This document shows positions 641 to 37,591 of a stretch of DNA of 64,000 nucleotides, piece after piece. The first letter of the stretch is position 1, and every line of letters starts with the position of its first letter. The notes beneath the pieces are model-generated. The model was not told the DNA's origin, did no database searches, and saw only the letters and a list, made by a program, of their open reading frames with translations. The translations under genes and the position numbers were made by a program. Location of the stretch: contig NC_088301.1 of the NCBI RefSeq assembly GCF_032854445.1, positions 22,003,808 to 22,067,807 of the forward strand, written 5' to 3'. This DNA is from Liolophura sinensis. Lineage: Eukaryota > Mollusca > Polyplacophora > Chitonida > Chitonidae.

Positions 641-1572
641 TTAACATGGTGAGCAGAAGACACCAGCGTCTTCGCTCTTCTCGCAGTTGTGTTGACCTAC
701 TGACGTTTCCAAAGGACACTGGAACAGACTTGCCTCTTCCCCTGAACACATAACATCGTCTAGGTGAATTGGTTGGTGAATCGAACCGGAGCCAAAATAC
801 TGCTGAATTGTAGCCAATCCGCCACAATAACCTAACTGTCGACAGACAACCCTAGCGTCGTTGTTATCCCAGCTATCATCGCACACACTGCCCCATGTTT
901 CATCGAGCATCACTTCGAGGCGGCCGCTTAACGCTGTGGGGCCGTTTACCAAGCGCATACACGGCGTCTCCACGTTGCACTCGACGGCGGCATCCATCCT
1001 GTGAGGACAGCCGGGATTCGCGCCCAGAGGGCAGAACATCAGATTCGATTCGTTGCCTTGACATCCCATAATCGCGTAAAACACTGGCCCGTTCGCAGAT
1101 GCGAATGGATTATTCCCGATAGCGGTTCCATTACAGAAGCCCAGCTGTCTGCAGACGACGGTGGCTTCGCGATCGCCCCAGCCCACGTTACAAACTGTCC
1201 CCCAGGTACCGTCTTGCATCACTTGCACCAGCCCCTGATGGCCGTCTCCACCTGTCAGCCGCAGATCACACGGTTTGCAGATTACTCCTGCGTCTTCGGA
1301 GTGGTCACAGTTGAGAGGAAAGATGTGCGAGCACTGGTTCAGATTGTTTTCACTACCTGAACAGTTTACATAAGACATTAATATTGGCCCGGTGCCTTCT
1401 CCAAACCTGGCCCGGTAGGTGGCCTTTCCTCCGCAGTACCCTAATTGACGACATACTACCTCGGCTTCTTCGTGTCCCCAATCGTCGTCACAAACTGACC
1501 CCCAACCTGCTTTAGTCCTCACCTCAACCCTACCGCTGGCCAAATTGATCCCGCCCACCAGGCGTACGTTGT
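641..1572 (-). CDS. exon 21 of the mosaic gene: three SRCR domains and C-terminus
   Basis: One uninterrupted exon encodes three scavenger receptor cysteine-rich domains of about 100 residues each. Each begins R-L-x-x-G and has the W-G-[ST]-V-C and V-V-C-R-Q-L-G motifs (WGSVCDDDWG, VVCRQLGYCGG) and a late A-[GA]-V-x-C strand. Domains 1 and 3 have about eight Cys, as in group B; domain 2 is similar. The exon starts after a TTTGCAG acceptor in phase 1, as exon 20 requires, and ends GVFCSPC-stop at 643-641. There is no transmembrane segment or GPI signal after the last domain, so the product should be soluble. SRCR domains commonly bind microbial or endogenous ligands. Confidence 0.92.
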
Positions 1573-4500: not shown

Positions 4501-7500
4501 AGCGACCGCACTAGTGAGAGTTATTGCGCCGCGCTGGCACGCTAACTACTCGGCCACGGAGGGCCTCCAAGCATTATTTGATGACCATTTAAATGCAATG
4601 ATATGTGAAAATACACCAAACTACTTCCCGCTTCTGCTGCTCTTAGATTTATATGTATGTATGTACGTATGTACGTATGTATGTATGTATGTATGTATGT
4701 ATGTATGTATGTATGTATGTATGTATGTATGTATGTATGTGTACGTGCGGGCATGCGTGTGTATGTGTGTGTGTGTGTGTGGATGGGTGTGCATGTATGA
4801 ATGCTTTTCCGTCGTGCTTAACAGTTTTTCATTCATATTCGGTGTTTGCACATATACTGTGTCTTCTCGTGGCAGGGCGAGTCCATGCCACCACTGAAGT
4901 ATCATGCCAAAGACAGCAGACATGACACCCCACTCAATCACATTATACTGACACCAAACCAACCAGTTTCTTTCTCTCTTTGTTCTAGCCTCTCAGTTCT
5001 GAGAATTAAGCGAGGCCACTCCTAGAAAGCAGATGCTCAGAAGTATCATCAGTATTTTATCAACCTGGAGTTCAACGTTCTGCGTTTTTGCCAAGCTGCT
5101 CTAAGCATATTTTCAATGTACTTATATTTAGGTTACTTGAACTTAGTATTAGTGAAACAAGATTGATTTTAAAGTGTTCGCATAATTTTATGAGTCTGTC
5201 TAACAGATTCACCGATCCAGAACGATGGTAACACTATTTCGACCTTCCTTGTGATTTTGGTTTCTGCTACCATTTTCTTGTAAACTTATGTACATTTCAT
5301 CTATTTTTTACGTTAATTTATGTATATATGTTGTTGTTTTTTTGCTGAGAAACCCTCGTGGTCATTAAGCTGTCGGAAATCCTGATGGAATGAATAAAGA
5401 ATTGAATTAAATTAAATTAAATTAAATTAAATTAAATTAAATTAAATTAAATTAAATTAAATTAAAATCATGCAGCAGTCGTTGGAAGTTGGTGACAACA
5501 ATCAGGCATAGTATGAGTGCTTGTGTACTCCAGCTCCCTACCACCAGTGTAGCGTAATTATTTGTAGGTCCCACGAGGAAAAGTTGGACAGTCACCTGCC
5601 AGTGGTCGGCGTATAATGAAATATTTTTGAGTGTAGCGTTAAACAACAATGAAATAAAATAAATAAATATTCGAAGTCTCATTGTAAGAAATTAAAGAGT
5701 TAAACCTACTAAAACAGGTTATTCGTCCATTTTTCTCAACCTGCATTGTTGCTGGGGGGCATTCTAGTAGGCAGTCGTCACTCTTCTCAGTTTTCACGCG
5801 ACACAGACAATGTGAACTTCCGAATTCGGCTCTAACTCCTACTCTAAGGGGGGAACAGTGCTGCACACAGGATCCTCCTTCCATCAGAGCACCTGAAAGT
5901 ATAGAAAGAATAAAAATTATGCTTAAAACTACAAGTATGGTGATAACGTACCGGGCCTCCGGCGCTTAATGGTTAGCGTGCTATTGTGGCACAAGACCCA
6001 GGAGTCTTTTATCAATGCGAACGCTGTGAGTTCAAGTCCAGCTCATGGTGGTTTTCTCTCCAGGCGTAAGTATTTATTTATTTATTTGATTGGTGTTTTA
6101 AACCGTACTCAAGAATATTTCACTTATACGACGGCGGCCAGCATTATGGTGGGTGGAAACCGGGCACAGCCCTGGGGAAACCCACGACCATCCGCAGTTT
6201 GCTGCAAGACCTTCCCACTTACGGCCGGAGAGGAAGCCAGCATGAGCTGGATTTGAACTCACAGCGACCGCATTGGTGAGAGACTCCTGGTTCATTGCGC
6301 TGCGCTAGCGAGCTAACCAAATGAGCCATGGAGCCTACCCCCCCCCCCCCCCCCCACCCCTCGGGCGTAAGTGGAAAGGTCTGGCATCAACCTGCAGATG
6401 GACGTGGGTTTACCCGTGCTCTGCCCGCTTTCATCCCACCATAATGCTGGCCGCCGTCGTATTATGATATATTCTTGAGTACGGAGTACCACCAATCAAA
6501 TAAGTACATAAATATAAAATTCAAATATTTAAATGTATTTAATTCTATGCAGGTTTTCAGTGATGGTCCGATTCATGATTTAGTTACCGCGTCTAGATAC
6601 ATCCACTAGACTGCACTCTGAGGCTACCTAAAGCCCATTACGCTACACATCAGCACAAGCTACTAATGTTAGCTTAGCGTATTATGATTCGTAGATACAC
6701 ACTTAAAGCAAACTATTTTAATAATGAAACGACAGATTAATATGTCATAACATTTCACTACATATTAAATATTCATTTAAAGTCAATGGAAATCAAAATT
6801 TAAGTATCTATATTAATCATAATTTTGTCCTGATGAACTTCACTGGTAGTACAATAATAAGGCTCAATGGTGTGGCATACATTGGGGCCCCCTTGGCCGA
6901 GGTGGTTAGCACGCCAGCATGTCCCAATGACCTAGGAAGCTCTATTCAATGTGCTCGTCGTGAGTTTAACTCCAGCTTCTGCTGGATTCCTGTCCGGCTG
7001 TACGTGGAAAGGTCTGGTACACAGAGTTGTTATTCAAATTTCTACTACCTGTGCCTCTTAATATGGGCGGGTTTAAGTGGTCACCTATCTCATTTGCATA
7101 AAAATATTAAATAAATCACCAGAAAAGACCATGTTACTTACACACACACGTTTTGCTGTCTGGTTTCGGTTTGTACATGGCTGGGCAGGATTCAACACAT
7201 CGGTCTCCAAATTTGAAGTTCCGACACTTCCGACACGTGCTGTCAGATCCGGAACTATGGCAACCTGGGAAAAATTGAATTGATCAAATAGATTTCCCCT
7301 TCTGCCACTTATATTTACTTTGTATTTAGTCACATGATCACATTGGCCTTAATGGACTTCCTTAAGTCTCACTCAAATGGTACAATTGGAGTCAGTCAGT
7401 GAGTGCTTGGGGTTTAACGTCGTACTTAACAATTTTTCAGTCATATAACGATGGGGGAATTCTTAGAATGCACTAATGCGCCTCTTTGTTGCAGAACGGA

Positions 7501-10500
7501 TTTCCACCGCTCTTTTATCCAATGCTGCTTCACTGAGACGACTTACCGAAGGCAAGTAAGTCGCCAATATACTGAGCCATTATACTGATACGGGTCAACC
7601 ATTTGTTGCACTATCCTCATTATACTGAACGCCAAGCGGAGAAGTTAAAACCCTGGATTTACCGCTCCCGAAGCGGGAGGCTAGAACAACTGTGCTATCG
7701 GGGCCGATGGTACAACTGGAGAATGAAAATGGGACATATGCTATTTCGTGTGATTGCAGCATTCGAAAACATCGCATCGTCTGAACACGGCTTATGAAAT
7801 AGACTTGACTGTCTTCATACCACTTATGGCCTTCGACGATTCCGTGTCACCATAGTGTTTCCGTCACTGAAGTATCATGTCGAAGACACCAGACATAATA
7901 CCCCACCCATCAAATAAACAAATAACACCCCACCTAGTCACATACTGACACCGGGCCAACCAGCCCTGTTTCCTTGCTCTCACCTGTCAGAGCTGAGCGC
8001 CAAGCGAGGCAGCAACAAGTACCATTTATAGTCTGCGGTATGATGCGTCCCGTGTTTGGTCCCAGGTCTCCAGACTTCGAGTGGAACGCTCTAACCACTA
8101 GGCCACCAAAATGGTCAAGGAAGCTAGTGATACGTCATGGGAGAGTAAATATCTATATATAAACCTACCGATGCACTGTGGATGGCATTTCTCCACACAA
8201 CGTCCTTGCTCAAGTACGGTCCCTCCCAGGCAAATCTGCGTCCCCGGGGATAAGGCAGGGAACAGTTCCACGTTCATGATTGTCGCCTCAGTCTCACCAT
8301 TTCCAAAAGCATAAAACCGGACGTGCAGTGGGTCGTCGTCCTCATACACGGCGTAAACATAGGATTCCGCCTGGAGAAAGAGGCCATGCAAATAGATTTA
8401 TTTATTTATTTGATTGGTGTTTTACGCCGTGCTCAAGAATATTTCACTTATACGACGCAAATAGATAGTTATACGCTCACCTTATTCGGGGCATGTATCT
8501 GTATAACGGATACCTGCATCCATATTCATAGTTCGTAGTGCAGTGATGTCATAGCTGCTCAGAGGCAATCATCAGGACACTCTTTGGTCACGTGACTAGG
8601 GTACTTGAGGTGCAAATAGGTTTTGGAGAAGAATGAGGAAAATAAAAAATACAACCTTCAGGTAAGAATTTTTTCTGAAAAATGTAGGATGAATGTGCCT
8701 AGCCTTCCAGTAACATAGTTTCAGTGTCCTATTTGTGCTAGTTTACTTTGGGAATCGGCAAAGATAAACATGTCCCTTCGCCAGTTAACTACATGTTATT
8801 TATCACCTCCTGCCTCCATGCGAAGGTTATGTTTGACATTTACCAGCATGCATTTCCCTCTGTCCTACACACATGCTACCTCCTGCGTAAACAAAGACCT
8901 CCACTCTGACTGAAGCGGTTGACTCTGATACGTTAATTTCAGTAGACTCGCGAGTTCACGCACGTTTAGACAAGATAAGCTTGAGGCTATCACAAATTAA
9001 CGCGGCTACCATAAGTGGTTTATGGTTGAGTAAACAGGGGCGTAGAAAGCGGGGGTGGGGACAAGGGGAACCATGGTCGTCCCACTTTCAAAAGTGGGGA
9101 CCAGCATAACTTTCGCCCCCCCCCCCCCCCCCCCAACCCCCCACCCCCACACACATTTTTCAGGTTCTGGAAATCATATATACTTGTAACACAAACAGGC
9201 CCTTTGTCGTATAAAACATCACGCTATTGCAAATATATTTCTCGATAAACTAAATATGGTAAACGGCGATTTTCCCGGTGCACATTACATTTAATATAGG
9301 GCCTACATGTTTTTTCCGTCCTTGGGCCTACATATTTATATATGTTTATGAGTTAGCTCCCTTAGATGGGACTCTTCAGTCGATTGAAATGGAGCCGCCA
9401 GAACTCTCTTTTTATGAGAGTTGCTTAGCGTAGGCGGTTTTCTGAAGTGCAAATTTTCTTGCCTCATGTACTAAAATAATGGTCTTTTTATAATAAACAT
9501 TATTCTGCAACCGTCGGTTTTATATTTTCTGCATTCATGCAACCATAGCTGCAATTGTCGTAAGGTTGTGAATTTTGATTATTTATCAAAGATTTTGCTT
9601 TTCCCAGATCACATGGTATAGTGTCACGAAGTTATATATACCTATTTTTCCAAACTAATAATGTGCCAAAATTACACATGTTTATGTAAGGTTTGTTTGT
9701 TTTAACTTTCAGTACAAATATAGAAGTATCATATATTAATATATACAATTCTCCCACGGAAGGGCAAAATCATCTACAGTGTAATTTGACACAAAGGTGG
9801 ACTCATTTGTCTCCAAACACAATCTTTTTTTTTTCTGATTTAGTGACTGTGTTTCAACGCAATGACCTCGCAGTTCTATTCAGCCCAAAAGCAGAATAAT
9901 TATTACATTTGTACAATATATGTACTCATCGGTGCTGAGTTATTTATTTCATTATGGTTTATCGTCCTTCCAAGATCATTTCACTTAGGACGGGTTGCAA
10001 GATTCATCAGTGAAGGAAAGATAAGTAACCGTTGTAACCACCGACGCGTTACTGGCAATTCGCCTAAATCAGACGCACGCCTCTTTCCTGAGCCGAAGGC
10101 CTTATCAAAAAGTGTATGTATACATGTGAATGACATTGATTTCAATCAAAAGCAAGCCAGCGTGAATAGGCCGGCAAGTTTACCACCAAGGCCCAGTGAA
10201 AACATGGATGTTTCTTTTCAACCATTCTCCTCCATACGAGTTAAATGCTTGTATTAGTCAATCTACACCAACCTTTCTCCGACATGCATAAATTTAATGT
10301 TGAATTCTGGATAAATTGTTACAATGTTCTTTGTTGACCCGTGGTTCTCCAGGCAAAAACGTCAACAAATGAGCTATCTCAATTTTTTCAGGCAGGCTTA
10401 AATAGTCAATAACACATCAAACTGGCATATCTAAGATACGGCAAATCGTCTCTAAGGCGATGTAGCTCCTTCAGAGCTTCCGGGGCCTTGGCGGCCCCTG

Positions 10501-19500: not shown

Positions 19501-22500
19501 AAAGACAATATATACCAAGAGGTAGTCCAAAATATCCATATGCCAAAGTCATTTTCAAGCGTGAAAACAGAAAAAATATTAAATATTTAGCTCACCCGTT
19601 AAGGTCTAGCCTCTGTGATGTGGAGGACGCGGACTTTCCTAAAACACTACCCCGCGCCTGTTTTCGTCTCTACGCCTGCCTTAGCAGAGTGGAACAAGCT
19701 ACTGGACTCGTACTGGAACGACTTAGCCGAGAAGGTACTGCAATATAAAGACATGTATAAGCTGTATATGGGCCTATTTGCATGACCACAGGACCATGTG
19801 CCAGGGGTTGGGAGTGGGAGACGGGGTAATTAACGTACCAGCGACCAATGCGGTCGCTGTGAATTCAAGTCCATTTCATGCTGGCTTCCTTTCCGGGAAG
19901 GTTTGTCAGTAACCTGCAGACGGGTTTCCTCCGGGCTCTGCAGAGTTTACTCCCACCTTTTACTGACCACCGTCGTTTAAGTGAAATATTCCTGAATAGG
20001 AGGTGAAACAATAATCAAATAAATCAAATAAATAAACAGCATGTGCAGTGCAGTTTCTAATCGTATCCTAAATGTACGGAGAAACTGGCTGTCCAACTTG
20101 TGACGTAGCAGCGAGGTCATGCGTTATATCGACCAAGGCCTCATATATTCATATATTTATGGCAAGGATCCATACCGGATAACGTCATGTCTTGTTATGC
20201 TGGTACCTCTTGACTTGATGGTATCTATAAGGGAATTAGTTATCTTGGTAACTCTTAACTTGATGGTGTCTATAAGGGAATTAGTTATCTTGGTAACTCT
20301 TAATTTGATGGTGTCTATAAGGGAATTAGTTATCTTGGTAACTCTTAGTTTGATGGTGTCTATAAGGGAATTAGTTATCTTGGTAACTCTTAGTTTGATG
20401 GTGTCTTTAAGGGAATTAGTTATCTTGGTAACTCTTAACTTGATGATGTCTATAAGGGAATTAGTTATCTTGATAACTCTTCGCTTGATGATGTCTATAA
20501 GGGAATTAGTTACCTTGGTACCTTATCACTTGGTGATCTTGTCTCTTCACTTGATGGCATCCATAAAGGATTTAGAAATCTGGGTACCTCTTAACTTGAT
20601 CGTGTTAATAAAGGAATTCACAATCTTGGTATCTGTTCACTTGATGGAATCTATAGCGGAATTTGCAATCTTGGTATCTGTTCTCTTATCCATCGTGGAA
20701 ATGGTTGATAAATCTAATTACCTGAACATCCCTTCGTAATCGGCCTCAGCTTTCGTAGCGAACGAATCGATTGTCTCCCCTTCTTTTGCTCTTTTTGTTT
20801 TGGCCAGCTTGAGTTGGCCGCCGAATTTGGCAGACTTTATGAAATGGGTTCCCCAGCGCAGGATGAAGTCCTCTGAATAAAACCAAACAAAACACACAGC
20901 TAAACCATTTGTTTCAGACTGAGGCAAATATATATTTCAGGACAAGGTTAACAGAATTTATTCCGCCAAGAACATTCGTAGAGCTTTTCCAGTGTCATCG
21001 AAAAGTGTGGAATGCTTCCTTTTACATGAATTCGAACTAATCACTTACTTTGTATACTTTCTGAGTTCTGTGGATAACCCTAAAGCTGCTGTTGTGGAAC
21101 TTTTGCCTTACGATTACTGATCCAGAACGCTCGTTGTGGTTGACGATTGTTATACAAATGTCAAAAATGTTTCAAAATGTAGACCTAATTACATTACTGT
21201 GGCTGCATATCTTCAAACAGATAAATCCATAACATAAATTATTTGTCTTTTTGAAGACAGTTCTTAAGAGAGGTCAGAAAATGACATAATTTACAGTAGA
21301 TAATTTCAAACATGACATTACACAGCCATGTTTGACCCAGGAGCCTTTGACAAGTGCGGTCGCTGTGAGATCAAGACCAGCTCACGCTGGCTCCCCAATC
21401 TGGCCATACATTGGAAGGCCTGCCATTAACCTGCGGATGGTCGTAGGTTTCCTCCGGACTCAGCACAATTTCCTCCATGGCGGCAGTCGTATATTTGAAA
21501 TATTGTTGAATACGGCGTAAAACACCAAGCAAATAAATAAATAAATGCACGGCCATGTTGAAGACAATACTTACGGAACTTTTGAGGATTTGTGCCAACA
21601 TATGATACGGGTAAATCGAGGAAGTCTTCAAGGAACTCCACGTTCAGATCGTTGAAGGATATGTCATCTAGAAAAAGTTCATACCTGTGGAGATTAACGA
21701 GAGTTTCTTGTGTTTTATTAAATTCGGTTGCTATCCCATGTAGAAAAAAAGATCTCATTCCCACATCTTTCCAATGCCCTCTTGTACAGAGATCGTAGCT
21801 ATAATCGATTGTAAAGCCAACAATTGAATCAAGAAATGACTGTAAAGCCCACAGCTGAATCAACAAATGATTGTAAAGATAAGTATGTCAAAAGGAATTG
21901 TAAAGGGATTTTACCTTTTCGGAATTATGATAGCAATCGTACGAAAATTTGGCTTGTGGTTTGTGTAAATGGAAGGTGTACCAGCCAATAACTTTTTCTT
22001 CTCTTTATTTTCAAAAGAGCTCTACGAGGAGTCATCCAGTGTGTGTACATGTACTATATTTTCCTCTATCAGAGAGAGTCCATACCCCCAAAAGTGCTGC
22101 CGCCACTGAAGTATCATACCGCAGACACCATACATGACACCCCATCCAGTAACATTCTACTGAAACCGAGTCATCCAGCTCTATTTCCTTGCTCTAACCT
22201 TTGAGTGCTAAGCGCCAAACACGGCAGCAACAAAATACCATTTTTAAAGTCCACAGTTTAGTCATCCCAGTACATCATAATACTCCACCTGCCAACAACA
22301 TGCGAAACAATTCGCAAATCGTAAAACAGTTAAATCGCAAACCGTGTCATAATTCGATGAGCGAAAGTCACGACTATCGAAGCTTACAATTCCTTTGTGC
22401 AAGACTGTAGGGATTACAAGTTAGGGCTACGGTTGCAATCCTAGTGATTTAGAAAGCTACCGATCCCTTTGTACAAGCTCTCGCCCCCACCCCACCCCCC

Positions 22501-25500
22501 CCCCCCCCTCCCAGTACTTTCACGTAAGTCTCCATAATAACATTATGACAGTATACAGCATGAGTTTGTGTACTGGACGATCATATACTTATACATCCTT
22601 AGGATCTGTTGCAAAAACATTTATAATTTACATTTTTTCATGGATTTCAACGGCTCATGTGTTCTCTTAACAGAACACTAATTTGCCATATCATTAAAAT
22701 ACGTCACAAAAAATCTCACCGTATAACATTTAGTTCAAACACGGACAGATACATTGCACCTTTCTGAGATGTCTTTTGGTTTCGACTAGCAGCATTAAAC
22801 CTTGAATTTGTCTGGGATGAGGATTCCTTGTCGAAGGAGTCCACTGAGAAACCCCCTCCAAATAAACCCAAAAACCCAAACGATGCTCGTCCGTATGCCT
22901 TGGTGGTCGCCTCTTGAAACATGTGACTGGACTGGGCCACGGCAGCTTTGGACTCTAAGTACGACTGGTACTGCCTGGCCGACTCAAAAGCCACTGTTTT
23001 CGTATCGGTGTCGTAGACTCCGTGGACTGTCATCGTGTCCGGGACGCTATACTTCCCGTACCTGTGAAACCATGTACGAGAAAAACATGTTGTTGGTGAC
23101 CTCAGGGAATAAATAAATGAAATTTTCTTACAGAGGATAACATAAGCAAAATATTATGACGAATGCGATAGGAATAAAATGAAAACATTCTGATTTCTTG
23201 CCTACGTGAAGATCGCTAGCAGTAGGGGAGTTTCCATTTCGAATTCTGTTATCTCAAAAGGTCAAAAAAAGTTCTATAGTAAAATGTGACCGATCAAAAC
23301 AACAGGAAATTTGGGTTACATTTAATATAGCACGGCTGTCTGATTAACGTTTCATGAAAAAGGTTGATGGAGTGGACGGACGATGTAGAAACTTGAAGAG
23401 TTTGTGAACGTTTGTGAACATAAGGAAAGCTCCAGAGTAGAAAACGGTGAAACAGGGGATTAATGTCAACAGTTTATTTTATTTTAATTTAATTTTTCTT
23501 TAAAATTAATGTAAACAAATTTATGGTTGGGAAAAGATACATTTATGGTTGGGAAAAGGAACAATTATTCCTGCGTACGCTTTTGTTGTTAACTAAGTAC
23601 TACATTTATAAAATCAAATTTCAAACAGCTACATTAAACTTTATAGCATTTTTACAAAAGATAAAATACCGGAATATCACTGAAACCTTTGTTTCAACAA
23701 TTAACCTAAGCTTTAGAATAAACTGGTAAATCGACATTTGTAAAATATATATTTCAACGTGTTCACACTGTGTAACATTTTTGGGTTACTTCCTTGATGG
23801 TGTTTATATTTTAGACACATTTTACGTTTTGAGATTCTCAATGATCTCTGATTGTAACTGATCTCTGCTTAATGTATAATTTTCCGTATATCTGTAAGAC
23901 ATATTTGTGAAAATGTATGTACTCCTGTGTCAAATATGCATAAAAAATAAAATAAAAATAAAAAAATAATGTCAGCAAAAGTTACCAAACTGTTTTGACA
24001 AATCACATGATCACAGCAGGACTTTTTCACATGTCGATACAAAAAGCGTTCGAACTCGAAACTGCCCTGTTGTAAATTGGTAAAGAATACATGTCTTTTG
24101 AACATCCGTCAAAATTTCTAGCTGAGATCTTACTTTCCCCTGTCGTTGCAGGTTCTTTGAATGACACTGTTCTTTCTGGAGGACGCGCTATAATCGCCCC
24201 GCCCATCAAACCCGACCCCGATAAAGCTGGCAGCATCCAGAAGGTTCTGTGGGAAGAAATTAGGGACATTTAAAGTACTTATTTATTTATACCATGCTGG
24301 AATACCACACAATAGAATCTCCTGTATCTACTGTTGGCGGCTGTCAGGAAGACAAATGCCGAATACTCTCAAGAAACAAATGTGTACCGTTTTGTACACG
24401 TGTTTGTCTACCCTACCCTGTGTACGGTGTGGTACACATTAAAAGTGAAGGTACATAAAGATGCAAAACACACATTTGTGTTCCTGTACAAATTTGTTAC
24501 AATTAATGTGGGCCTGTGGTACACATTTTGTGTATATTTTACACACACTTGGTTTTAAAAAATAGGGTCCGGTAGAAATGATCACACTTTCCAAGCATGG
24601 AGTTGAGGCCGGTATTTGATTGACTGGTTGATTGATTGATTAGTTTGTTGAATAATTCGTGTTTTATGCCGTGCTCGTGAGTATTTGATTCGTGCGATAG
24701 GGGCCAGTTTATAATGCGTGGAAGAAACGGAATATCAGGATGTAAACCACAAGGGTTTGGCTAGTAAATGTCATATATAATTCCATCTCATTTGTTTTAC
24801 GAAAAAAAATATCCCGAACAAATCTGATACATTCTACAAAGTGTGTATATGTGCAATATAAGAGATCAAACCCCATAAGGCCTTTTTCTATTCCGTTAGG
24901 TAAGCCCTAACCATTATCTGTCCGGTTTCCCCCTCCCATGATGCTGAAAGCCATTGTATAAGTGAAATATTATTGAGTAAAACACCAGTCAAATAAATAA
25001 ATACGAACACTGTCGATCGCAAATACCACCGAGGCGCCCCGCGAACAGGTGACGCAGGGATGCCTCAAGGATTCTCTGTCCGAGACTGGGATATAACCCA
25101 CAGCTCATTTTTTTCTGGCGTTTCCAGTATTTGGTAATCTGTGAAAACCCAAACAAAACGATAAAAACGGATATCTACTGCATTTCAACCAGGAAAGCCA
25201 AACATCCTTTTAAATTCAACGTTGACTGACAATGCCTTATATCTCAAGACAAATTAAAGCGTGTCAGTTAAAGGAGGGGGCTTTAAAAATGATCCCCGAA
25301 AAAAGATACCCTAACATTGTTTTACAACTATACATTTAATATTTCCCTTTTCAGATTATGTTTGCAGCTATTTTCTTTCAGTTTTGAAAACATTCTTTAA
25401 TCTTTATATTATATGTTCAATGTTCTATTTTAAATTTTTTTAATTGTTTTTTTTTTTAACTTTTGCTCTTCCAATTTCTGGTTTTAGGGATTTTTCGTGT

Positions 25501-28500
25501 AGGGTTGTCTTAGTTCTTCGCATGTGTGGAAAGTGACGTGTGATAATCGAGACCAAGTAAAAAAGATGGCTAACAATAAAGCGACTACAAACTGTTGACA
25601 ATGTGTACGTAGAAATTTTCTGATAACTTATTTTGGCGAAATTTATTTGTTAGCTAAGCCTTTCAGTTATGTGTATGAATTATCCACCCGATAAAATGAT
25701 CATATACACGCAATGTTTTCTATATGCAAAAGTTTTGTACAGCCTATAACACAGAGCTTTTCAAATTAGAGAATAGAATCTACTCAAGGTATCTATCGCA
25801 TTTAATTAGATCGTGGTTGAGAAAGGGCTCAGTGGCCGTGTATTTGACGTACTGGCACAGAAGAATAACTCCGAAACTTATCACCAATCAGTTACCCAGT
25901 GTAGTAATTACTAGTACTGAAAGAGGATGCTTTCTCGCTACCAACGTTTTCCATAACCTTTACCCACCGAGTTTTACAAATTAGAGAATAGAATCTGCTT
26001 AAGATGTCTATTGCATTTAATAAGAGCTAGGGAGAAGGGAGAGCTTAGTTTCCGAGCGGTTAGCGTGCTAGCACAGAACAACGACTCTGAAGCCTAGGGG
26101 CCTCCAGTAATAATGCTGGCCACGGTCGTATAAGCCATGTATTCTTGAGTGCAGCTTCAAACATTAATCAATCAGATAAATAAACAAATCCACTTCTCTA
26201 GTGACAGAAGCAACCATCTCGCCAAAGAATACTTACCCTGCAGCCTTTCAAAAGGCGCATGGCGAACCTGCATGGGTCCTGTGAGTACATAGGGCCCATT
26301 GGGCCCATTGGCCCATGTGGGTTCATGTATCCCATCATTCCGTTCGTATAACATCCATTCAGAAGCATATTACCGATGCCACCAGGGTATCCATATGCAA
26401 ACTGATTGTGGTCTATGGGTTCAGGGCTGTGGAGAGTCAATACATTCTGCTGAAAACTTCATTACCCTCTTGATCTAGGTTGCACCAAGCTTTAAGCAAA
26501 AGCATGCTTCAAAGTAAATAGTGTTTCTTCGGGCATTCATCATTGCTGCGTGTACTTACCCAGGGACAGATTCCACAAAGCTGTTTCTGATTTAGGTCAA
26601 AATTTAAATTCTCTTCACGCTGCTTAGATTTTGGTACTAGAAGTTGAAATAAGAACACGTTTGTCGTGAGGTATTATTGATAAGGGGGACAAAGTTTTAA
26701 ATTGTTCAGCCCAAAAATAACCTTTAAGATTGTATTTCATATTTTGAATTAAATTAGAAATACCCTTGAGGGATTGGTCCCTGATCCCGTATTTATCCAA
26801 CGTCTTAAGAATTAAGTCAAATATTCAAACACAGTTACAAATAAAATGTTTCTGTAGAACAATGTGCTACCCATAAGTCTGTTTCTGTTCTGAGTTTAGC
26901 TTTTTAAAGGCTTACAATTTATGATCGTAGAGGAAGCCAATATGACCAGTGTTTGAGCTCACGACAGTCGATATGGTGAGAGGCTCCTGAGTCATTGTGC
27001 TCTACGAGCACACTCTCCTCTCGATCACAGAGGCCTCCTCTATGAAGTTTGGACTCTTAAGCACTTACAGTATTACTTAAGTCTTAAGGCGCTTGGTTAC
27101 ATCCGGGCTCAGGGCAACACTAACACACTCCAACAATGAAATATAGAGGGCGTAATGTGACACACGTCTAGTTAAAGTTATCTTCAACATTCTCCTATCA
27201 TATGTAATCTTAATGGAAGCCCCAAACCTCTTAGCCTCCACCAACATGACGCACATGTATGTCACACGTGAGAAAGTTTGCCGGTAGCTTTCCAGATGTA
27301 AGTCGTTTATTCCGGCATCTGCATGAAATTATATATCTTCTATACATCAAACATGGTGCTATCTTGTAAGTGGCAAATTCTTGGATACAATATACCGTAT
27401 AACAACGAAGACATAAATAAATATGTGTTAACTTTCTACCTTATGGTTCAGTATATGAGCTTACATTTTTGTTTGGATGACAAAGTCATTACACCATAAT
27501 TGTTACCTTTTGTTTGGATATGATTCCTTGATTCTCCAGGCTGGGGGTAGAAACATCGACCCAAGATCCATCCCACGTTCAGGAACAATGCTGATTTCGG
27601 CCTAAACAGAAATGGCTGGTCAATTAATTAGCAGTTAATTAATTTGTAAATGAGTGCAAGTGTGAGTTACAAACACAAGAGTGATATAATGAGTTAAAGT
27701 CAGGGCAGAGGTGACTGGCTGAGCGCGCAAGTGTGAGTTACAAAACCAAGAGTGGTATAATGAGTTAAAATCAGGACAGAGGTGACTGGCTGAGAGCGCA
27801 AGTGTGAGTTACAAAAAAAAAACACGATCGGTAGAATGAGTTAAAGCGAGGGCAGAGGTGACTGGCTGAGCGCGCAAGTGCAGGGGTGACAAGCTGAGCG
27901 GGCGAAAACAGGAGTAGCTGGCTAAACCAGAGTACATGCGGATCAGCATAGGGGTGATTGGCAGAACTTGGCAGAGCAGTTATGACAGGCTGAGTCGAAC
28001 GAGAGCATGGGTGAGTGGCTTAGTGGGCGAGAGCAAGGGTTGACTGGCTGAAAGGGTAAGAGGTGATTCGCTGAGCGGTTGAGAGCAGGGATGACTGGCC
28101 CAGCTGGCAAGAGCAGGTGTGACAGGCTGATATGGCGAGAGCAAGCGTGACAATGGATGTTAGCAGAGGTGACTGGCTGAGCCGGTGATAGTAAGGGAGA
28201 GAAGTGGCTGAGAGCACGGGTGACTGACTGAGCGGGGCGACAGCAGGGGTGACGGCGACTGTCTGATTTTGAGAGAGCAGGGGTGACTGCCTGATCTTGC
28301 GAGAGCAGGAGTGACCACCTGATCTGTCGAGAGCAGGGGTGAAAGGCCAAACGATCAGAGGTGGCTGGCTGAGCGAATGAGAACAGGGGTGACAGACTGA
28401 GGAAGTAAGAGCAGGGGATTGCAGACTGAGCGGAGCGAGAGTTGGTTGTAACAAGGTAAGCTGGTGAGACGAAGAAAAGCTTGGTGAACAGTAGAGGCTG

Positions 28501-31055
28501 ACAGTGTGTGGCTCAGAGGGAGAAAGAGGAAAAGTGTTAGTATAATGTGACTGGGTAGGGAAATTCAGTGAAGGAAACAGAGACGGTAACCCTGGGTGTT
28601 ATCTTGCCGGGGGCTAATGGGACACAATATTTATTTATTTATTTGATTGGTGTTTTAGGCCGTACTGAAGAACGACCATCCGGAGGTTGCTGGAAGACCT
28701 TCCCACTTACGGCCGGAGACGAAGCCAGCATGGACTTGATCTCACTGCGACCGCATTGGTGAGAGTTTCCTGGGCTAGCTAACCAACTGAGCCATGGAGG
28801 CCCCTAGGACATGATAAGACATATGAGCTATTAGTGCTTAACGCCACATCGGCAATATTGCAGCCATGTGGTGGCGACATATTGACATAATATAGCTTTT
28901 TAAGGGTGCGTGGTTTAGTCTGGGAACTCCAGGAACTCCGGTTTCCTCCACCAATAACATACTCCCCGCCATTCTATAAGTGAACAATTTGTGAGCATTC
29001 CGTTGAAAGGGTACAGAATCGACGCTGACTGATTGACGTTGGAGATTCCCCGGGTTAAACCATGAAGCACTGATCACGCTTGAACAAATCTTCCATACCT
29101 AAAACTCAACTCTCACACCAGCTAATCAGAATACATCCTCTATCAAACAGAGCTTGCAGATTAATGGAAATTTAGTTAATTATAGTTAACATGATCTGTA
29201 TACTAGTTGTAGCCTCTTTAACCAAGGCTAGAATGGGTCCTATACAATTAACATTAAAGCATTATTCCAATGAAATGGAGCGTGATATCACCGATGTGAA
29301 TGTCATTCCAAATGTAGATTTCTTTTCATAATAACTTGTGTTATTTCATTTTCGACTTATCCCTTTAAATGAATATAGATGGCAGACGGTGCTTAAGAAC
29401 ACGCTGTAATAAACTCCTGTGCGTAATGACGGGAGTTCAATTTCATTCAAAATACTTCATATTAATAACCTCACCCCTTCCTTAATGAAGGAATCTTGGC
29501 GCTGCCTAAGCTTATTCATAACCCCCTGCAGTCGAGCATGCTGCTGTCCGCTTTCTTTCGTGGCCTCGTCGAAGAACTTCTCAGAGTGGTTGCCGAAAGA
29601 TTGAAATATCTCATCTTTCCGATTTCTGTCCAGTATTTCCGAAAACAGTTTATCAGCAATTCTTTGAATACCGTCGCCCACAATCTTCTGACCTTGACCC
29701 ATCATAAACTGTTGTGCTGCCGCTGCAATTGCCCGTTTAGAGTGGGATTTACTTCTGCCTGCAATACAACGAAGACCAGTTCTACTTACTTTGTGTCATT
29801 CAGAGGCAAGAGGCAAAAGCAGAAAAACAAAACTTACAACTGGCATGCGCGTGTTATTCGAAGGGGTTAGGAGGCAGTCTGGCTAGGTTTAAATTTTGTG
29901 TTTCCAGTCCATCTGTTCGTTTAGAGCCTGACAAAGTAATTTTAGATTACTAAATAACACATAACCGGGTTGTTGACTCGGGAGCCTCTCGCCAATGCTT
30001 TCGCTGTGAGTTCAAATCCAGCTCAAGATAACCTACTCTCCGGTCAAACTGCCAGCAACCTGTGGATGGTTGTGGGTATTCCCCGGGAGTAGCCCGGTTT
30101 CCTGCCACCGTAACGCTGGCATCTGTCGTATAAGTGAAAAGTCTAGTATACGGCGCAAAACTCCAATCAAAAAAATAGATAAATGTAATATGTAGCCCCG
30201 GCTTTATAACGGGAATTTTGTGGATTCATTCGCTTTCACTATTTGTATAGAGGCTGATGTAACAATCATAAGATAAAGTCCGTTGTAGTCACGGAAGTTT
30301 GTGCTTTATCTCAGCCTGCGTATTTACATAGACCTGGAAAGAATTCCAAAAAAATTTGCACAGTTTTTGCATAATTAAAAATAATGATAAATTGTTTGAA
30401 ATCTATTGTTACTCTTGCATTTATGTTTCTAACCCGTGATGAATCGCTAAAAATGCTAAAACAACACATTGTTACATGTATAAAACGATTAACACACGCA
30501 TCAGCTAAAGCTTTTATACACATATACAATCCGGTAAAATTCACCCTTCGCGGTTCATTTAGACTCACTCTTTGGGAATAAGGCTGAACATTGCTTATCC
30601 AACCGAATCTTAAATATACCAACATAATATACCTGTATGTTTATTTCACATCAACTAAATAGGAAAAAGGGAGCCTCCGTGGCTCAGTCGGTTAACGCTG
30701 CCAGGGCAGCGTAATGATCCAGGAGTCTCTCACCAATGCGGTCGCTGTGAGTTCAAGTCCAGCTCATGCTGGCTTCCTCTCCGGCCGTACGTGGGAAGGC
30801 CTGCCAGCAACATGCGGATGGTCTTGGGTTCCCCTGGGCTCTGCCCGGTTTCCTCCCACCATAATGCTGGCTGCCGTCGTATAAGTGAAATATTCTTGAG
30901 TACTGCGTAAAGCACCAATCAAATAAATAAATAAATAGGAAAAATGTAACTACAGCATACTGTGGCTTACCGTGCCGAACCGGTCTTTCTTCGCAAAATG
31001 AGCCAGACATAAGAAGATATATCCACGTCAAGCACAGTAACATTCGCATCGACAT
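641..31055 (-). CDS. secreted MACPF / Methyltransf_FA / furin-like / SRCR mosaic protein, 21 exons
   Basis: Hand-built gene model. Exons in transcript order: 31055-30971, 29758-29475, 27601-27507, 26636-26560, 26449-26237, 24246-24134, 23061-22720, 21684-21575, 20872-20722, 19737-19596, 18492-18251, 17732-17530, 16691-16554, 15623-15454, 12926-12751, 11614-11410, 11013-10867, 8370-8169, 7264-7142, 5892-5710 and 1572-641. Every junction has an AG acceptor and GT donor. Phases agree from exon 4 to 10 and from 15 to 21. Slips occur at the end of exon 3, in exons 10, 11 and 14 and at the exon 11/12 junction, and a TGA lies in exon 12. The product would be secreted: MACPF suggests membrane insertion, SRCR suggests ligand or microbe binding. 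An immune effector role is inference. It could instead be two adjacent genes, but the exon 20/21 phase match argues for one. Confidence 0.6.
1722..1910 (-). mobile_element. SINE family A, 5'-truncated
   Basis: Reads in reverse from a TTTATTTATCTGATTGG tail through the conserved core (CGCCGTTCTCAACAATATTT) into the body. It lies in intron 20 of the mosaic gene. Confidence 0.7.
2170..2690. repeat. 63-bp satellite, 8 units, with higher-order pattern
   Basis: Eight units of exactly 63 bp. Units alternate between CTGCCACACT and CTGCAAGACT variants, and the odd units alternate again (CTTTA versus CTATA), giving a 252-bp higher-order period present twice. The unit's core (ATGACACCCAACACTG... GGGGCCAACCAG) resembles the body of SINE family B. 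Because 63 is divisible by 3, a minus-strand frame stays open through the array; I regard that as an artefact. Confidence 0.9.
2930..4010 (+). mobile_element. non-LTR retrotransposon fragment (RNase H and 3' end)
   Basis: Plus-strand frames contain the start of a LINE RNase H domain (IYTDASKCPSTSKTGA, then LRLSDNLSVYSAEL near 3230-3357). Further on is its characteristic end (RHSGVSGNAREDRLAKLSL near 3550-3610), followed by a tail with HHVLLVHC and LCPAKNASLAFKAVGNYL in shifted frames. Stops, frameshifts and a non-homologous middle section show a dead copy, sense-opposite to the host gene in intron 20. I cannot assign the clade securely; Jockey-like is a guess. Confidence 0.65.
4350..4567 (-). 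mobile_element. SINE family A, near full length
   Basis: Reverse-oriented copy running from a diverged tail through the CAGCATTATGG body to the tRNA-like head (GGCCACGGAGGGCCTCC). It lies in intron 20. Confidence 0.65.
4653..4790. repeat. (TATG)n then (TG)n microsatellite
   Basis: About 90 bases of ATGT repeats pass into GT repeats. Adjacent to SINE family B sequence. Confidence 0.95.
4798..5025 (-). mobile_element. SINE family B copy
   Basis: Shows the core (CGTCGTGCTTAACAGTTTTTC) and the body with GAAGTATCATGCC and ACATGACACCCCAC. The tRNA-like end is missing. In intron 20. Confidence 0.6.
5404..5466. repeat. (ATTAA)n microsatellite
   Basis: About twelve tandem copies of a five-base unit, in intron 20. 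Confidence 0.95.
5710..8370 (-). CDS. exons 18-20 of the mosaic gene: end of Methyltransf_FA and furin-like Cys-rich repeats
   Basis: Exon 18 (8169-8370) begins with a segment like the end of a Methyltransf_FA domain (DPLHVRFYAFGNG) and then enters a Cys-rich stretch with CVEKCHPQC. Exon 19 (7142-7264) continues with CRKCRNFKFGDRCVESCP, the spacing of the furin-like or growth-factor-receptor cysteine-rich repeat. Exon 20 (5710-5892) adds nine Cys. The repeat spans the exon 18/19 junction in phase 1, which supports their linkage. Exon 20 ends at an A/GTAGGT donor in phase 1, matching the SRCR exon. The frame also stays open past this donor to 5639, an alternative terminus. Confidence 0.65.
5951..6515 (+). 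mobile_element. SINE family A copy interrupted by a second, inverted copy
   Basis: The outer element's tRNA-like head and body (5951-6071) continue at 6364-6515 after an interruption, ending in ACCAATCAAATAAGTACATAAATA. GGCGTAAGT flanks the insert at 6063-6071 and 6364-6372, the expected target-site duplication. In intron 19. Confidence 0.85.
6072..6363 (-). mobile_element. SINE family A, inner nested copy, full length
   Basis: Complete reverse-oriented copy from the TATTTATTTGATTGG tail to the GAGCCATGGAGCC head. It is followed by a run of about 18 C at 6339-6356, itself inside the duplicated target. Confidence 0.85.
7395..7640 (-). mobile_element. SINE family B, rearranged copy
   Basis: The core (GGGGTTTAACGTCGTACTTAAC) is followed by a rearranged body containing CATTATACTGATACGGGTCAACCA and GAACGCCAAGCGGA. 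In intron 18. Confidence 0.5.
7855..8107 (-). mobile_element. SINE family B with tRNA-like promoter end
   Basis: Contains the diagnostic GAAGTATCATG and GACACCAGACAT, then ends in a tRNA-like segment. On the minus strand that segment has an A-box-like TGGCCTAGTGGTTAGAGCG and, further in, a degenerate B-box region. In intron 18. Confidence 0.75.
8398..8456 (-). mobile_element. SINE family A, 60-bp truncated insertion with perfect target duplication
   Basis: Only the tail and conserved core are present. GCAAATAGAT occurs directly at both edges (8388-8397 and 8457-8466), a 10-base perfect duplication. The insertion is in intron 17, upstream of the exon 18 acceptor at 8371. Confidence 0.85.
8467..10660. 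other. intron 17 interior
   Basis: No gene seen. It contains a G-rich stretch at about 9049-9076, a C-run at about 9116-9134 and AT-rich sequence. Plus-strand frames at 9693-10257 look random. Confidence 0.5.
10661..10820. repeat. 40-bp minisatellite, 4 units
   Basis: Four copies of a unit beginning CATCTTCCATTTGCGTTATT and containing GCGAGAACCCCCACC, with starts near 10661, 10701, 10740 and 10780. It lies just inside intron 17, about 47 bases from exon 17. Confidence 0.9.
10867..16691 (-). CDS. exons 13-17 of the mosaic gene: linker and start of Methyltransf_FA domain
   Basis: Exons 13 (16554-16691), 14 (15454-15623) and 15 (12751-12926) encode a region I do not recognise, with one base missing in a G-run of exon 14 near 15590. 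Exon 16 (11410-11614) and exon 17 (10867-11013) carry the pattern of the farnesoic-acid-O-methyltransferase-type domain: alternating strands (DIFIVFS), Y-Y-L-Q-I-G followed by a V/I-rich strand, and then LYESYFVCF before a Gly-Lys end. In many invertebrates this domain is found in secreted proteins and is not an enzyme, despite its name. Phases are 2 then 0, and everything from exon 15 on is unbroken. Confidence 0.6.
11995..12135 (-). mobile_element. SINE family A, degenerate
   Basis: Core-like GCTTAACGCCATACTCGAGA and body-like CAATGGCGGTCAGTTTTATG in reverse orientation, in intron 15. A smaller core remnant lies at about 11037-11090, in intron 16. Confidence 0.5.
12950..14095. repeat. 1.1-kb diverged minisatellite, about 40-bp unit
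   Basis: Roughly 28 diverged units around ATTATCCACTGGATATGAAC and GATGAACAACGTC fill much of intron 14. Divergence suggests an old array. Confidence 0.9.
14293..14427 (-). mobile_element. SINE family A, 5'-truncated
   Basis: Tail, core (TTTTACGCCGTACTCAAGAA) and start of body in reverse orientation, in intron 14. Confidence 0.7.
15061..15250. repeat. (TGTATGCA)n microsatellite with an embedded duplicated SINE-B core
   Basis: Two blocks of ATGT/ATGC repeats, separated and followed by the same segment (TGCTTGCGGTTTTATGTAGT), so the microsatellite and neighbouring SINE-B sequence were duplicated together. Confidence 0.85.
15250..15440 (-). mobile_element. SINE family B copy
   Basis: Core at about 15265-15290, then GTATCATGCTGCAGACACCAG and ACACCGGCCAACCGGTCCTG. 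It ends beside exon 14, whose donor is at 15453. Confidence 0.65.
16115..16210 (-). mobile_element. SINE family A, degenerate core
   Basis: TTTAACGCCATACTTAAGAA followed by a body-like GTAGTCAGTGTTATGAG, in intron 13. Confidence 0.45.
16869..17492 (-). other. unassigned open frames in intron 12
   Basis: Two minus-strand frames of 86 and 106 residues lie back to back between exons 12 and 13. They read as plausible protein but match nothing I recognise, and I see no splice phase linking them to the host gene. They may be chance or a relic of an inserted element. Confidence 0.2.
17530..24246 (-). CDS. exons 6-12 of the mosaic gene: MACPF domain
   Basis: Exon 6 (24134-24246) carries ASFIGVGFDGRGDYSA, matching the G-x-G-[YF]-D start of MACPF domains. 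Exon 7 (22720-23061) has a Gly-rich FGFLGLFGGGFS and a Ser-rich strand. Exon 8 (21575-21684) has FLEDFLDLPVSY. Exon 9 (20722-20872) has the family signature WGTHFIKSAKFGG. Exons 10-12 continue the domain, with a Gly-Gly-rich turn in exon 11 and Cys-containing segments. Breaks: one extra base in a G-run near 19646, one missing base near 18468, one extra base at the exon 12 acceptor near 17732, and an in-frame TGA at 17562-17560. Splice sites are intact. MACPF proteins oligomerise and insert beta-hairpins into membranes; activity of this copy is unproven. Confidence 0.75.
18744..19100 (-). other. unassigned open frame in intron 10
   Basis: A 118-residue minus-strand frame with a good upstream acceptor (TTTTCCCTTTAAG) and a possible GTAAAG donor. 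Its phases (0 in, 1 out) do not fit exons 10 and 11, so it is not a constitutive exon in this frame. No domain recognised. Confidence 0.2.
19840..20035 (+). mobile_element. SINE family A
   Basis: Body (GCGGTCGCTGTGAATTCAAG, the B-box region), core (AAGTGAAATATTCCTGAATA) and ATCAAATAAATAAA-type tail, in intron 9. Confidence 0.75.
20190..20695. repeat. 45-bp minisatellite beside exon 9
   Basis: About eleven units of TTGATGGTGTCTATAAGGGA plus ATTAGTTATCTTGGTAACTC, exactly 45 bp in the central units and diverging at the right end. Because 45 is divisible by 3, the plus strand has an open frame of hydrophobic 15-residue repeats (LMVSIRELVILVTLN). The array ends about 27 bases from the donor of exon 9. 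Confidence 0.95.
21330..21546 (+). mobile_element. SINE family A
   Basis: Diverged copy from the B-box region to an AAATAAATAAATAAATG tail. It abuts the exon 8 donor at 21574. Confidence 0.75.
22070..22260 (-). mobile_element. SINE family B copy
   Basis: Body segments GCCGCCACTGAAGTATCAT and ACATGACACCCCATCCAGT, and a GCAACAAAATACCATTTTT boundary. In intron 7. Confidence 0.65.
24630..25005. mobile_element. two opposed SINE family A remnants
   Basis: A reverse core at about 24630-24735 (GTTTTATGCCGTGCTCGTGA) and a forward core with tail at about 24895-25005 (AAGTGAAATATTATTGAGTA, AAATAAATAAATAC). Both are diverged, in intron 5. Confidence 0.55.
26040..26190 (+). mobile_element. SINE family A, internally deleted
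   Basis: Head (GAGCGGTTAGCGTGCTAGCA) joined directly to the distal body (AATAATGCTGGCCACGGTCG) and tail, so the middle is deleted. It ends about 45 bases from the exon 5 donor. A reverse head fragment lies at about 26930-27035. Confidence 0.65.
26237..29758 (-). CDS. exons 2-5 of the mosaic gene: N-terminal helical and Gly/Met-rich region
   Basis: Exon 2 (29475-29758) encodes 94 residues rich in Lys, Gln, Glu and Ala, with no Cys and a helical or coiled-coil look. Exon 3 (27507-27601) and exon 4 (26560-26636) are short. Exon 5 (26237-26449) is exactly 71 codons, with a Gly/Tyr/Met-rich segment (HGPMGPMGPMYS) and then a Cys-containing stretch leading into MACPF. With the best donor for exon 2 (GGG/GTGAGG), exon 3 ends in phase 2 but exon 4 needs phase 1. 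An extra A in the A-run at the exon 3 donor (near 27508) would explain this. So would use of a weaker donor, AG/GTTATT, for exon 2. I recognise no domain here. Confidence 0.55.
27655..28470. repeat. minisatellite, about 23-bp unit, in intron 2
   Basis: Irregular tandem copies built around GAGAGCAGGGGTGACTGGCTGAGCG, preceded by three longer units containing GCAAGTGTGAGTTACAAA. Units vary in length. Confidence 0.9.
28625..28804 (-). mobile_element. SINE family A, internally deleted
   Basis: Tail and core join directly to GACCATCCGGAGGTTGCTGG; the head ends in GAGCCATGGAGGCCCC. In intron 2. Confidence 0.75.
29965..30185 (+). mobile_element. SINE family A
   Basis: Diverged copy from the head region (GGGAGCCTCTCGCCAATGC) to core and AATCAAAAAAATAGATAAATG tail, in intron 1. 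Confidence 0.75.
30669..30931 (+). mobile_element. SINE family A, full length, with target duplication
   Basis: The best complete copy: A-box-like GTGGCTCAGTCGGTTAACG, B-box-like GAGTTCAAGTCC, body, core (AAGTGAAATATTCTTGAGTA) and AAATAAATAAATA tail. TAAATAGGAAAAA is duplicated at 30656-30668 and 30932-30944. The right duplication is about 26 bases from the exon 1 donor. Confidence 0.92.
30971..31055 (-). CDS. exon 1 of the mosaic gene: signal peptide
   Basis: The ATG at 31055 opens a 28-codon stretch with a basic start, a hydrophobic core (MLLCLTWIYLLMSGSFC) and then polar residues EERPVRHG, a classical cleavable signal peptide. It ends in phase 1 at a GTAAGC donor. A good acceptor (TTGTTACAG) lies 10 bases before the ATG, so a further 5' untranslated exon probably exists upstream. 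I could not locate it. Confidence 0.7.
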
Positions 31056-32773: not shown

Positions 32774-33682
32774 TTATACACGAGACAAGCAATCTGCAAT
32801 AACATTATCTTTTCCCTTTATATGTTTGATTTCAAGATTGTATTCCTGCAACAATAAACTCCACCGTAACAATCTCTGATTCTTTCCCTTAACTTTCTGT
32901 AGAAACACAAGTGGATTGTGATCAGTATTTACAATCACAGGTTGTCTTGAAGCTGTTACATAAACTTCAAAATGTTGCAGAGCTAAAATAACAGACAAAC
33001 ATTCTTTTTCAACAGTTGAATAATTTCTCTGAAACTTGTTAAGTTTACGAGAAAAGAAACAAACTGGATGATCAACACCAAGATTGTCCTCCTGAAGCAA
33101 AACTGCGCCTATAGCAACATCACTTGCATCAACTGCTAACTTAAAAGTTTTCTCAAAATTAGGTGCGAACTTTTAAGTATGGCTTTTATCTCATCAAAAG
33201 CAGTCTGGCACTCGTCTGACCAAGTAAACTTGCTGGACTTCTTCAACAGATGAGTCAATGGCTCACTAATAGTGGAAAAAATTGGACAGAATTTCCTGCA
33301 ATATCCAGCCATACCCAAAAGCGCTTAAGCTCCCTCTTGTTACAGGGTACAGGAAGTGTAGAAATAGCACTGACTTTTGAGTCAATAGGCTTAACTTGAC
33401 CTTGGCCGACAACATGACCCAAATATGTGACAGTGGCACAACACTTTTTACAAGATTGACGGTAAGTTTAGCCTGACTAAGTCTCTTAAACAACTGGCGT
33501 ATTCTGGAAATGTGCTGTTCCCAAGTGTCGGCGAAGATAATGACGTCATCTATGTAGACACGACACCCGTCCAAACTGGAAGTGACCTCATTCATCAGGT
33601 GTTGATACGTAGCTGGGCTATTCTTCATTCCAAACCTTGTACTGAAAGAGTCCATCGGCCGTAGCAAACGCTGAAACTTCAC
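32774..33682 (-). pseudogene. pol: retrotransposon reverse transcriptase (C-terminal part) and RNase H, frame-broken
   Basis: Continues the upstream pol frame after a break near 33640, where several bases around the conserved Val-Met-Pro appear lost. The catalytic YIDD (VYIDDVIIF) is at about 33540-33562. Thumb residues follow in three frames, with A-run and T-run slips near 33446 and 33318 and another break near 33160. The RNase H part (KLAVDASDVAIGAVLL, VNTDHNPLVFL, KGKDNVIADCLSRV) ends at a stop near 32774, about 40 bases before the LTR. Confidence 0.9.
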
Positions 33683-37494: not shown

Positions 37495-37591
37495 GATGAA
37501 TAAAATCTGCTGGCAAAATTTACTACAAAGTCAAAGACTAGAAAAATGACACAACTTACACAAAATCCTTTCAATTCCAATTCAAATTCAC

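Follow-up and report, generated by a model that had tools for sequence, protein, structure and literature searches.

The window analysed here, a stretch of 64,000 nucleotides from the chiton Liolophura sinensis (C7:22003808-22067807), carries on its minus strand, at positions 641-31055, a gene of 20 exons that belongs to a family of animal MACPF proteins in which the core is shared and the C-terminal tail can be exchanged. An excerpt of the genome report gives the assembly as 609.5 Mb in 632 scaffolds (PMC11068029); its species name was first L. japonica and was later corrected to L. sinensis (PMC12441733). An earlier sequence-only reading had drawn the same interval as one transcript of 21 exons with intact splice sites and matching phases. 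The coordinates and strand stood, and GT donors and AG acceptors were found at 19 of 19 introns, but the exon number fell to 20 after comparison with a paralog removed candidates. The phases agree end to end across exons 1-9 and across exons 14-20, but not through exons 9-13, where six frame breaks lie in exons 9, 10, 11 (three) and 13. The exons, all on the minus strand, are as follows.

30971..31055, minus strand: exon 1, start codon and hydrophobic, signal-peptide-like N-terminus (hydropathy; start of RefSeq P0004)
29475..29758, minus strand: exon 2, N-terminal region; the downstream intron matches the paralog's in position and phase
27507..27601, minus strand: exon 3 (paralog comparison)
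26237..26426, minus strand: exon 4 (paralog comparison)
24134..24246, minus strand: exon 5, approximate start of the MACPF fold (FIGVGFDGRGDYS; fold limits transferred from the P0024 model)
22720..23061, minus strand: exon 6, MACPF (paralog comparison)
21575..21684, minus strand: exon 7, MACPF (paralog comparison)
20722..20872, minus strand: exon 8, MACPF signature WGTHFIKSAKFGG (Pfam PF01823 and paralog comparison)
19596..19737, minus strand: exon 9, MACPF, one frame break; its in-frame stop is the end of the RefSeq 486-residue protein
18251..18492, minus strand: exon 10, C-terminal part of MACPF, one frame break (Pfam and paralog comparison)
17530..17732, minus strand: exon 11, approximate end of the MACPF fold, three frame breaks (three-frame translation, paralog)
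16554..16691, minus strand: exon 12, first part of the predicted jelly-roll region, frame open (translation, paralog)
15454..15623, minus strand: exon 13, predicted jelly-roll region, one frame break; a single exon with exon 12 in the paralog
12751..12926, minus strand: exon 14, inside the predicted jelly-roll region; start of the RefSeq 655-residue protein (MSIRG)
11410..11614, minus strand: exon 15, predicted galectin/CBM66-like jelly roll (structure model; PF12248 only at E 0.13-0.15)
10867..11013, minus strand: exon 16, predicted jelly roll (structure model, paralog)
8169..8370, minus strand: exon 17, end of the jelly roll and start of the Cys-rich region (structure model, paralog)
7142..7264, minus strand: exon 18, furin-like Cys-rich region (PF00757 below threshold; Foldseek matches to HER2/HER3/HER4/EGFR ectodomains)
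5710..5892, minus strand: exon 19, end of the furin-like region and last exon in common with the paralog, followed by a phase-1 intron
641..1572, minus strand: exon 20, three SRCR domains in a single exon and the stop codon (PF00530, E 1e-70)

Candidate exons at 26560-26636 and 25005-25138 and a longer form of exon 7 (21575-21798) were rejected, since none has a counterpart in the paralog and the phases chain in their absence. Tandem arrays lie in introns at 12945-14069 (unit 40 bases) and 20194-20520 (unit 45), on either side of the frame-broken stretch, and further intronic arrays are found at 2169-2666 (unit 63 bases) and 10661-10819 (unit 40 bases). Two RefSeq proteins cover the locus. The N-terminal product is identical over its full length (100%) to P0004, a protein of 486 residues (LOC135469660 isoform X3) that ends at the exon 9 stop, and the C-terminal product is identical (100%) to P0001, a protein of 655 residues that starts at the first codon of exon 14. 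At the signal peptide claimed by the sequence-only reading the N-terminus is hydrophobic, the best 19-residue window of the 486-residue product scoring 1.45 at residue 3; the 655-residue protein has no strongly hydrophobic N-terminus (0.71).

Strong evidence for descent of the core exons from a single gene comes from intron phases and positions, which match those of the paralog LOC135473788 (P0002, 1525 residues), at C8:41345-41359 kilobases (kb), whose introns were located exactly by script. The phases of the introns following exons 1-8 (1,0,2,0,2,2,1,2) and exons 14-19 (2,0,0,1,1,1) are identical in the paralog, so that phase agrees at 14/14 compared introns and position at 13/14. By script, 12 introns stand at the same residue as the paralog's. 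For the intron following exon 19 the script gave residue 1525, a misalignment, and the tblastn alignment, which places it at paralog residue 1120 in phase 1, was used instead. The intron following exon 1 has the same phase but not the same residue; the N-terminus is poorly aligned there. Exons 12 and 13 of the window gene correspond to one exon in the paralog. A single ancestral gene is further argued for by the trees, since both halves fall in the same clade: in separate N-half and C-half trees with 31 chosen relatives, the window gene groups with the paralog and a Lingula protein (supports 100/96 and 100/99). The single ancestry proposed from sequence alone is thus borne out.

Two of the proposed domains were upheld by searches with hidden Markov models. 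PF01823 (MACPF) scored 36.9 bits against a cut-off of 21.5 (E 5.6e-9) on a 562-residue draft of exons 1-9 that still included two stretches dropped later; it is present also in P0004 and matches 35 of 36 relatives at E<=0.01, and exon 10 holds a second, colinear piece below the cut-off (E 0.0036, 17.9 bits). PF00530 (SRCR) scored 234.8 bits against 26.1 (E 1e-70) in three stretches. The structure model of the C half has no confident SRCR part, with a predicted local distance difference test score (pLDDT) mostly below 50 from residue 350, so the SRCR assignment rests on Pfam. For an amphioxus relative (P0024, 1029 residues) the model, of mean pLDDT 68.6, has a MACPF fold at about residues 192-637 and a jelly roll at 639-946.

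The Methyltransf_FA domain of the sequence-only reading was not sustained: PF12248 reached 12.2-12.5 bits, under its cut-off of 24.2 (E 0.13-0.15). At E<=0.01 it occurs in at most 1/36 relatives, as it is not in the best 25 of 28 families, the last of which have one member each, and in a wider Pfam scan at E<=10 it was not among the best 25 of 51 families. The model of the 655-residue protein is mostly confident over residues 1-345, and by structure comparison residues 66-214 form a jelly roll whose nearest folds are CBM66 and galectins, with identity to the 50 chains listed of just 4-11%. The region would be better called a galectin/CBM66-like jelly roll. The furin-like repeat was sub-threshold as well. 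PF00757 scored 12.6-13.4 bits, and 20.5 bits in Lingula, all under the cut-off of 26.8, but Foldseek matched HER2/HER3/HER4/EGFR ectodomains at E from 1.3e-4 (identity 22-29%); we take these suggestive matches to be the Cys-rich part, with a high root-mean-square deviation, mostly 10-14 over 98-143 columns. One or two domains occupy the lists of fold matches, and a domain's absence there is uninformative. Phmmer comparison of N- and C-terminal pieces with PDB sequences gave nothing below E 0.04.

With paralog residues 200-1130 as the query, 129 proteins were found at E<=0.01 among 7988 candidates scored, and the best 120 of the 129 were examined. By species names these include 99 from Branchiostoma, 17 from Cnidaria, one from a chiton and one from Lingula. 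PF01823 is present in 118/120, being absent from P0108 and P0128. The 120 members and the window N half make an alignment of 121 rows, of which 106 cover 80% or more of the core columns (paralog residues 200-1010). A core of about 930 residues is common to the members while the C-terminal tail varies. Among the 120 listed, Pfam lists of predicted proteins, entered by hand into a script, give tails with Ephrin_rec_like (34), F5/8C (32), SRCR (20), C-type lectin (19), EGF (17), NCD3G (11), laminin-G-like (10), chitin-binding (6), SUEL lectin (5), kringle (5), pentaxin (5), fibrinogen (4) and PAN (3) domains and rarer ones, with none in 31. On a quick core tree the minimum numbers of changes are 19 for F5/8C, 18 for Ephrin_rec_like, 12 for C-type lectin and 7 for SRCR, counts that mispredicted genes inflate. 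Both half trees have a branch with the 12 cnidarian rows all to one side of it. In the N-half quick tree the paralog and Lingula group to the exclusion of the window gene (support 96); the C-half tree leaves the three unresolved, with a window branch of 1.04 against 0.17. The members are mostly titled 'uncharacterized protein', a few having automatic names, and no description of the MACPF-core family was found among the best matches in the open-access literature, subscription papers and supplements being outside this scope. The sequence-only reading had called the architecture apparently new. The domain order is real and indeed unnamed, yet it is not unique: the paralog, Lingula LOC106160199 and amphioxus relatives have the same order or close variants, and MACPF occurs with SRCR in 18/99 listed Branchiostoma proteins.

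The window gene and its paralog share the same intron plan as far as the phase-1 intron after exon 19, and then their tails differ, the window gene having three SRCR domains in one exon and the paralog Cys-rich exons and one intron-split SRCR. A difference of this kind is expected from exon shuffling at a phase-1 border. Another triple-SRCR exon in the chiton genome (L024 6447-7487; C11:7219.4-7220.5 kb) has a phase-1 acceptor and ends in a stop like exon 20. In 27 kb around it there was no convincing core-like match, the best (E 0.84) falling at the SRCR exon itself, on the opposite strand. The window SRCR domains are 37-54% identical to the three of the C11 exon and 33-41% identical to those of P0002 and Lingula. 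We do not claim the C11 exon as tail donor, there being no one-to-one correspondence of domains. A partial further SRCR copy lies at L024 722-997, and clusters of SRCR-coding sequence were seen at C8:3798-3824 kb, C13:28989-29119 kb and C4:18652-18750 and 22972-23031 kb. Two stretches of the C8 cluster gave no open frame of at least 200 residues; the genome search gave frames of 351-362 residues there.

MACPF proteins frequently make pores, and SRCR domains bind varied ligands. The explanation that we consider probable is that the gene belongs to a family of secreted MACPF proteins aimed by interchangeable tails, with a function predicted to be immune. The core would consist of an N-terminal region, MACPF (about exons 5-11), a jelly roll (about exons 12-17) and a furin-like Cys-rich region (exons 17-19), to which the triple-SRCR exon would here have been joined at the phase-1 intron. 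The anatomy suggests that the protein is secreted, that the tail, and perhaps also the jelly roll and Cys-rich region, would recognise a target surface by binding its glycans or other ligands, and that MACPF subunits would then assemble there and act on the membrane. The 'soluble recogniser-effector' of the sequence-only reading is plausible. The amphioxus expansion is in keeping with an immune role, and so is the enrichment of MAC/perforin-like domains among dispensable genes of two lancelets reported in an excerpt of that study (PMC12373286).

The copy as assembled cannot encode a full-length protein. When the paralog and Lingula P0015 were aligned to the window by tblastn, the frame changed inside exon 10 and a stop was read through in exon 11. 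In three-frame translation exon 9 follows the paralog as far as its own stop; exon 11 has three frame changes, of which the first is deduced from the phase that exon 10 passes on, and exon 13 has one. An alternative exon 9 donor that avoids the break was rejected since the paralog's exon has the full-length form, and the break was counted. Exon lengths differ from the paralog's by a multiple of three in 14/18 comparable exons, the other four being exons 9, 10, 11 and 12+13. The six breaks are confined to about 4 kb (19.7 to 15.6 kb), less than one mean read of the 14x HiFi data from which the assembly was built (mean 8,347 bp in the excerpt of PMC11068029).

One explanation is that the breaks are real, the window copy having recently lost its middle as a pseudogene or null allele while LOC135473788 on C8 carries the function. 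The six breaks are there in the assembly, and the paralog is intact; the assembly search turned up neither a second copy of the window gene nor, at E<=0.001, a third copy of the core (68/405 and 31/336 candidates scored), the 75 matches (P0001) and 34 matches (P0002) listed outside the window and the C8 paralog falling in the SRCR part. The longer window branch in the C-half tree and the enrichment of MAC/perforin-like domains among lancelet dispensable genes point the same way. On the other side, no break occurs in exons 1-8 and 14-20, which total 3338 coding bases, and the broken exons are no more diverged than their flanks. At residues identical between the paralog and Lingula, the window differs at 93/259 in exons 1-9, 80/223 in exons 14-19 and 44/142 in those pieces of exons 10-13 that can be read (p 0.32 for the middle against the flanks), with no excess of replacements in the broken exons. 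Because a long unselected stretch should differ more, the breaks are either recent or an error of the local consensus. A local consensus error is slightly ahead of recent real disablement, which we regard as quite possible while leaning away from it.

The family may also not be membrane-lytic, the MACPF fold serving in adhesion, aggregation or structure and the tails in ligand binding, a proposal that is compatible with the other readings. Some MACPF proteins are non-lytic, the present data show no pores, and the putative hairpin regions are of low confidence in the P0024 model. Since, against this, the MACPF fold is kept in that modelled relative and the signature WGTH..GG in six members aligned, we think a non-lytic family rather unlikely. 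That the locus holds two genuine genes as in RefSeq, a 486-residue MACPF-like protein (LOC135469660) and a 655-residue SRCR protein, agrees with the ends of the two products at the exon 9 stop and exon 14 and with their full identity to the window, but is improbable, given that the borders fall inside the MACPF fold and the jelly-roll region, that the C half has no strongly hydrophobic stretch at its start despite a tail of 24 cysteines, that introns and exon order are those of the single intact C8 gene, that both halves have the same phylogenetic place and that exons 10-13 are still conserved. The sequence-only reading had named transcripts that stop or start within its exons 12-21 as the sign of separate genes, and formally RefSeq does list two proteins. 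Because their borders cut through the MACPF and jelly-roll folds, as compared with the folds modelled on P0024, we read the split as a probable consequence of the frame breaks. The locus is in that respect a warning for annotation, as a frame-broken stretch made one gene appear as an SRCR protein and a short MACPF protein.

Several points weigh against a secreted MACPF protein aimed by its tail. That explanation is drawn from anatomy, and the only sequence analysed has six frame breaks. RefSeq labels its two proteins isoform X1 and isoform X3, so they may indeed come from separate transcripts. The MACPF fold comes from a model of the amphioxus relative P0024 and not of the window protein, and in that model 274/1029 residues are under pLDDT 50, including 291-334 and 438-485, where the membrane hairpins would be expected. 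The jelly roll is a common fold and no proof of sugar binding, and it contains a hydrophobic stretch (1.77 in P0001, 2.03 in P0002) that forms strands in the model and could have another role. The pieces in the relative-rate test were selected for being readable, the tail counts come from predicted gene models and an unbootstrapped tree, and the long C-half branch (1.04) makes the exact place of the window gene unsure.

We advance more tentatively, a little short of expecting it to hold, the wider proposal that a secreted immune weapon is common to cnidarians, amphioxus, a brachiopod and chitons, built of an unchanging pore-forming core (MACPF-jelly roll-furin-like) and recognition tails swapped at exon borders, a germline-coded repertoire with dozens of versions in amphioxus. 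MACPF proteins need aiming, and here a core of about 930 residues is kept across Cnidaria, amphioxus, brachiopod and chiton while a dozen or more kinds of extracellular module serve as the tail. If the proposal is true, one warhead would be served by many recognition modules and the chiton locus would be one such swap; an active core would make the family a repertoire of targeted pore-formers in invertebrates.

The window also holds mobile elements. A decayed long terminal repeat-type retroelement lies at 32774-37530 on the minus strand, with a gag-like frame that has a weak SCAN match (E 0.00035, under the cut-off) and with integrase preceding reverse transcriptase in one frame and RNase H after them. 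We take its domains to be Gypsy-type and its order copia-like, reminiscent of Gmr1-like elements. Dispersed element copies with a common start of the type TTATTTATTTGATTGGTGTTTTACGC were seen by eye on the minus strand in introns at about 21.5, 25.0, 30.1 and 30.9 kb.

The closest known relative is the paralog LOC135473788, which is like the window gene in core and intron phases except for the intron between exons 12 and 13, with 49% identity over exons 1-9 and over exons 14-19. Its frame is intact, and it has more Cys-rich exons (one EGF-like by eye) and one intron-split SRCR. Lingula anatina LOC106160199 (P0015, 1510 residues) has MACPF, a sub-threshold furin-like region and SRCR in the same order. 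It is 65% identical to P0002 over residues 200-1130 and nearer to P0002 than to the window gene, though the C-half tree leaves this unresolved, and both it and the paralog have a further Cys-rich region between the furin-like region and the single SRCR. Branchiostoma floridae LOC118414613 (P0059, 1671 residues) joins the MACPF core to three SRCR stretches, with F5/8C and Ephrin_rec_like domains between them and a sub-threshold PAN piece after. MPEG1/perforin-2 is defined by a C-terminal membrane span, unlike the window gene, in which no membrane-span-like stretch was found in the last 400 residues of P0001 (highest 19-residue hydropathy 0.78). A single open frame of 778 residues at L001 1054-3390 (C8:35455332), in which the eye picks out a hydrophobic stretch close to the C-terminus, we take from its sequence to be MPEG1/perforin-2-like. 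The perivitellin-2 of apple snails has a different lectin and a different assembly. It is alike in principle, being a molluscan MACPF protein joined to a lectin, as an excerpt of its description has it (PMC12031178).
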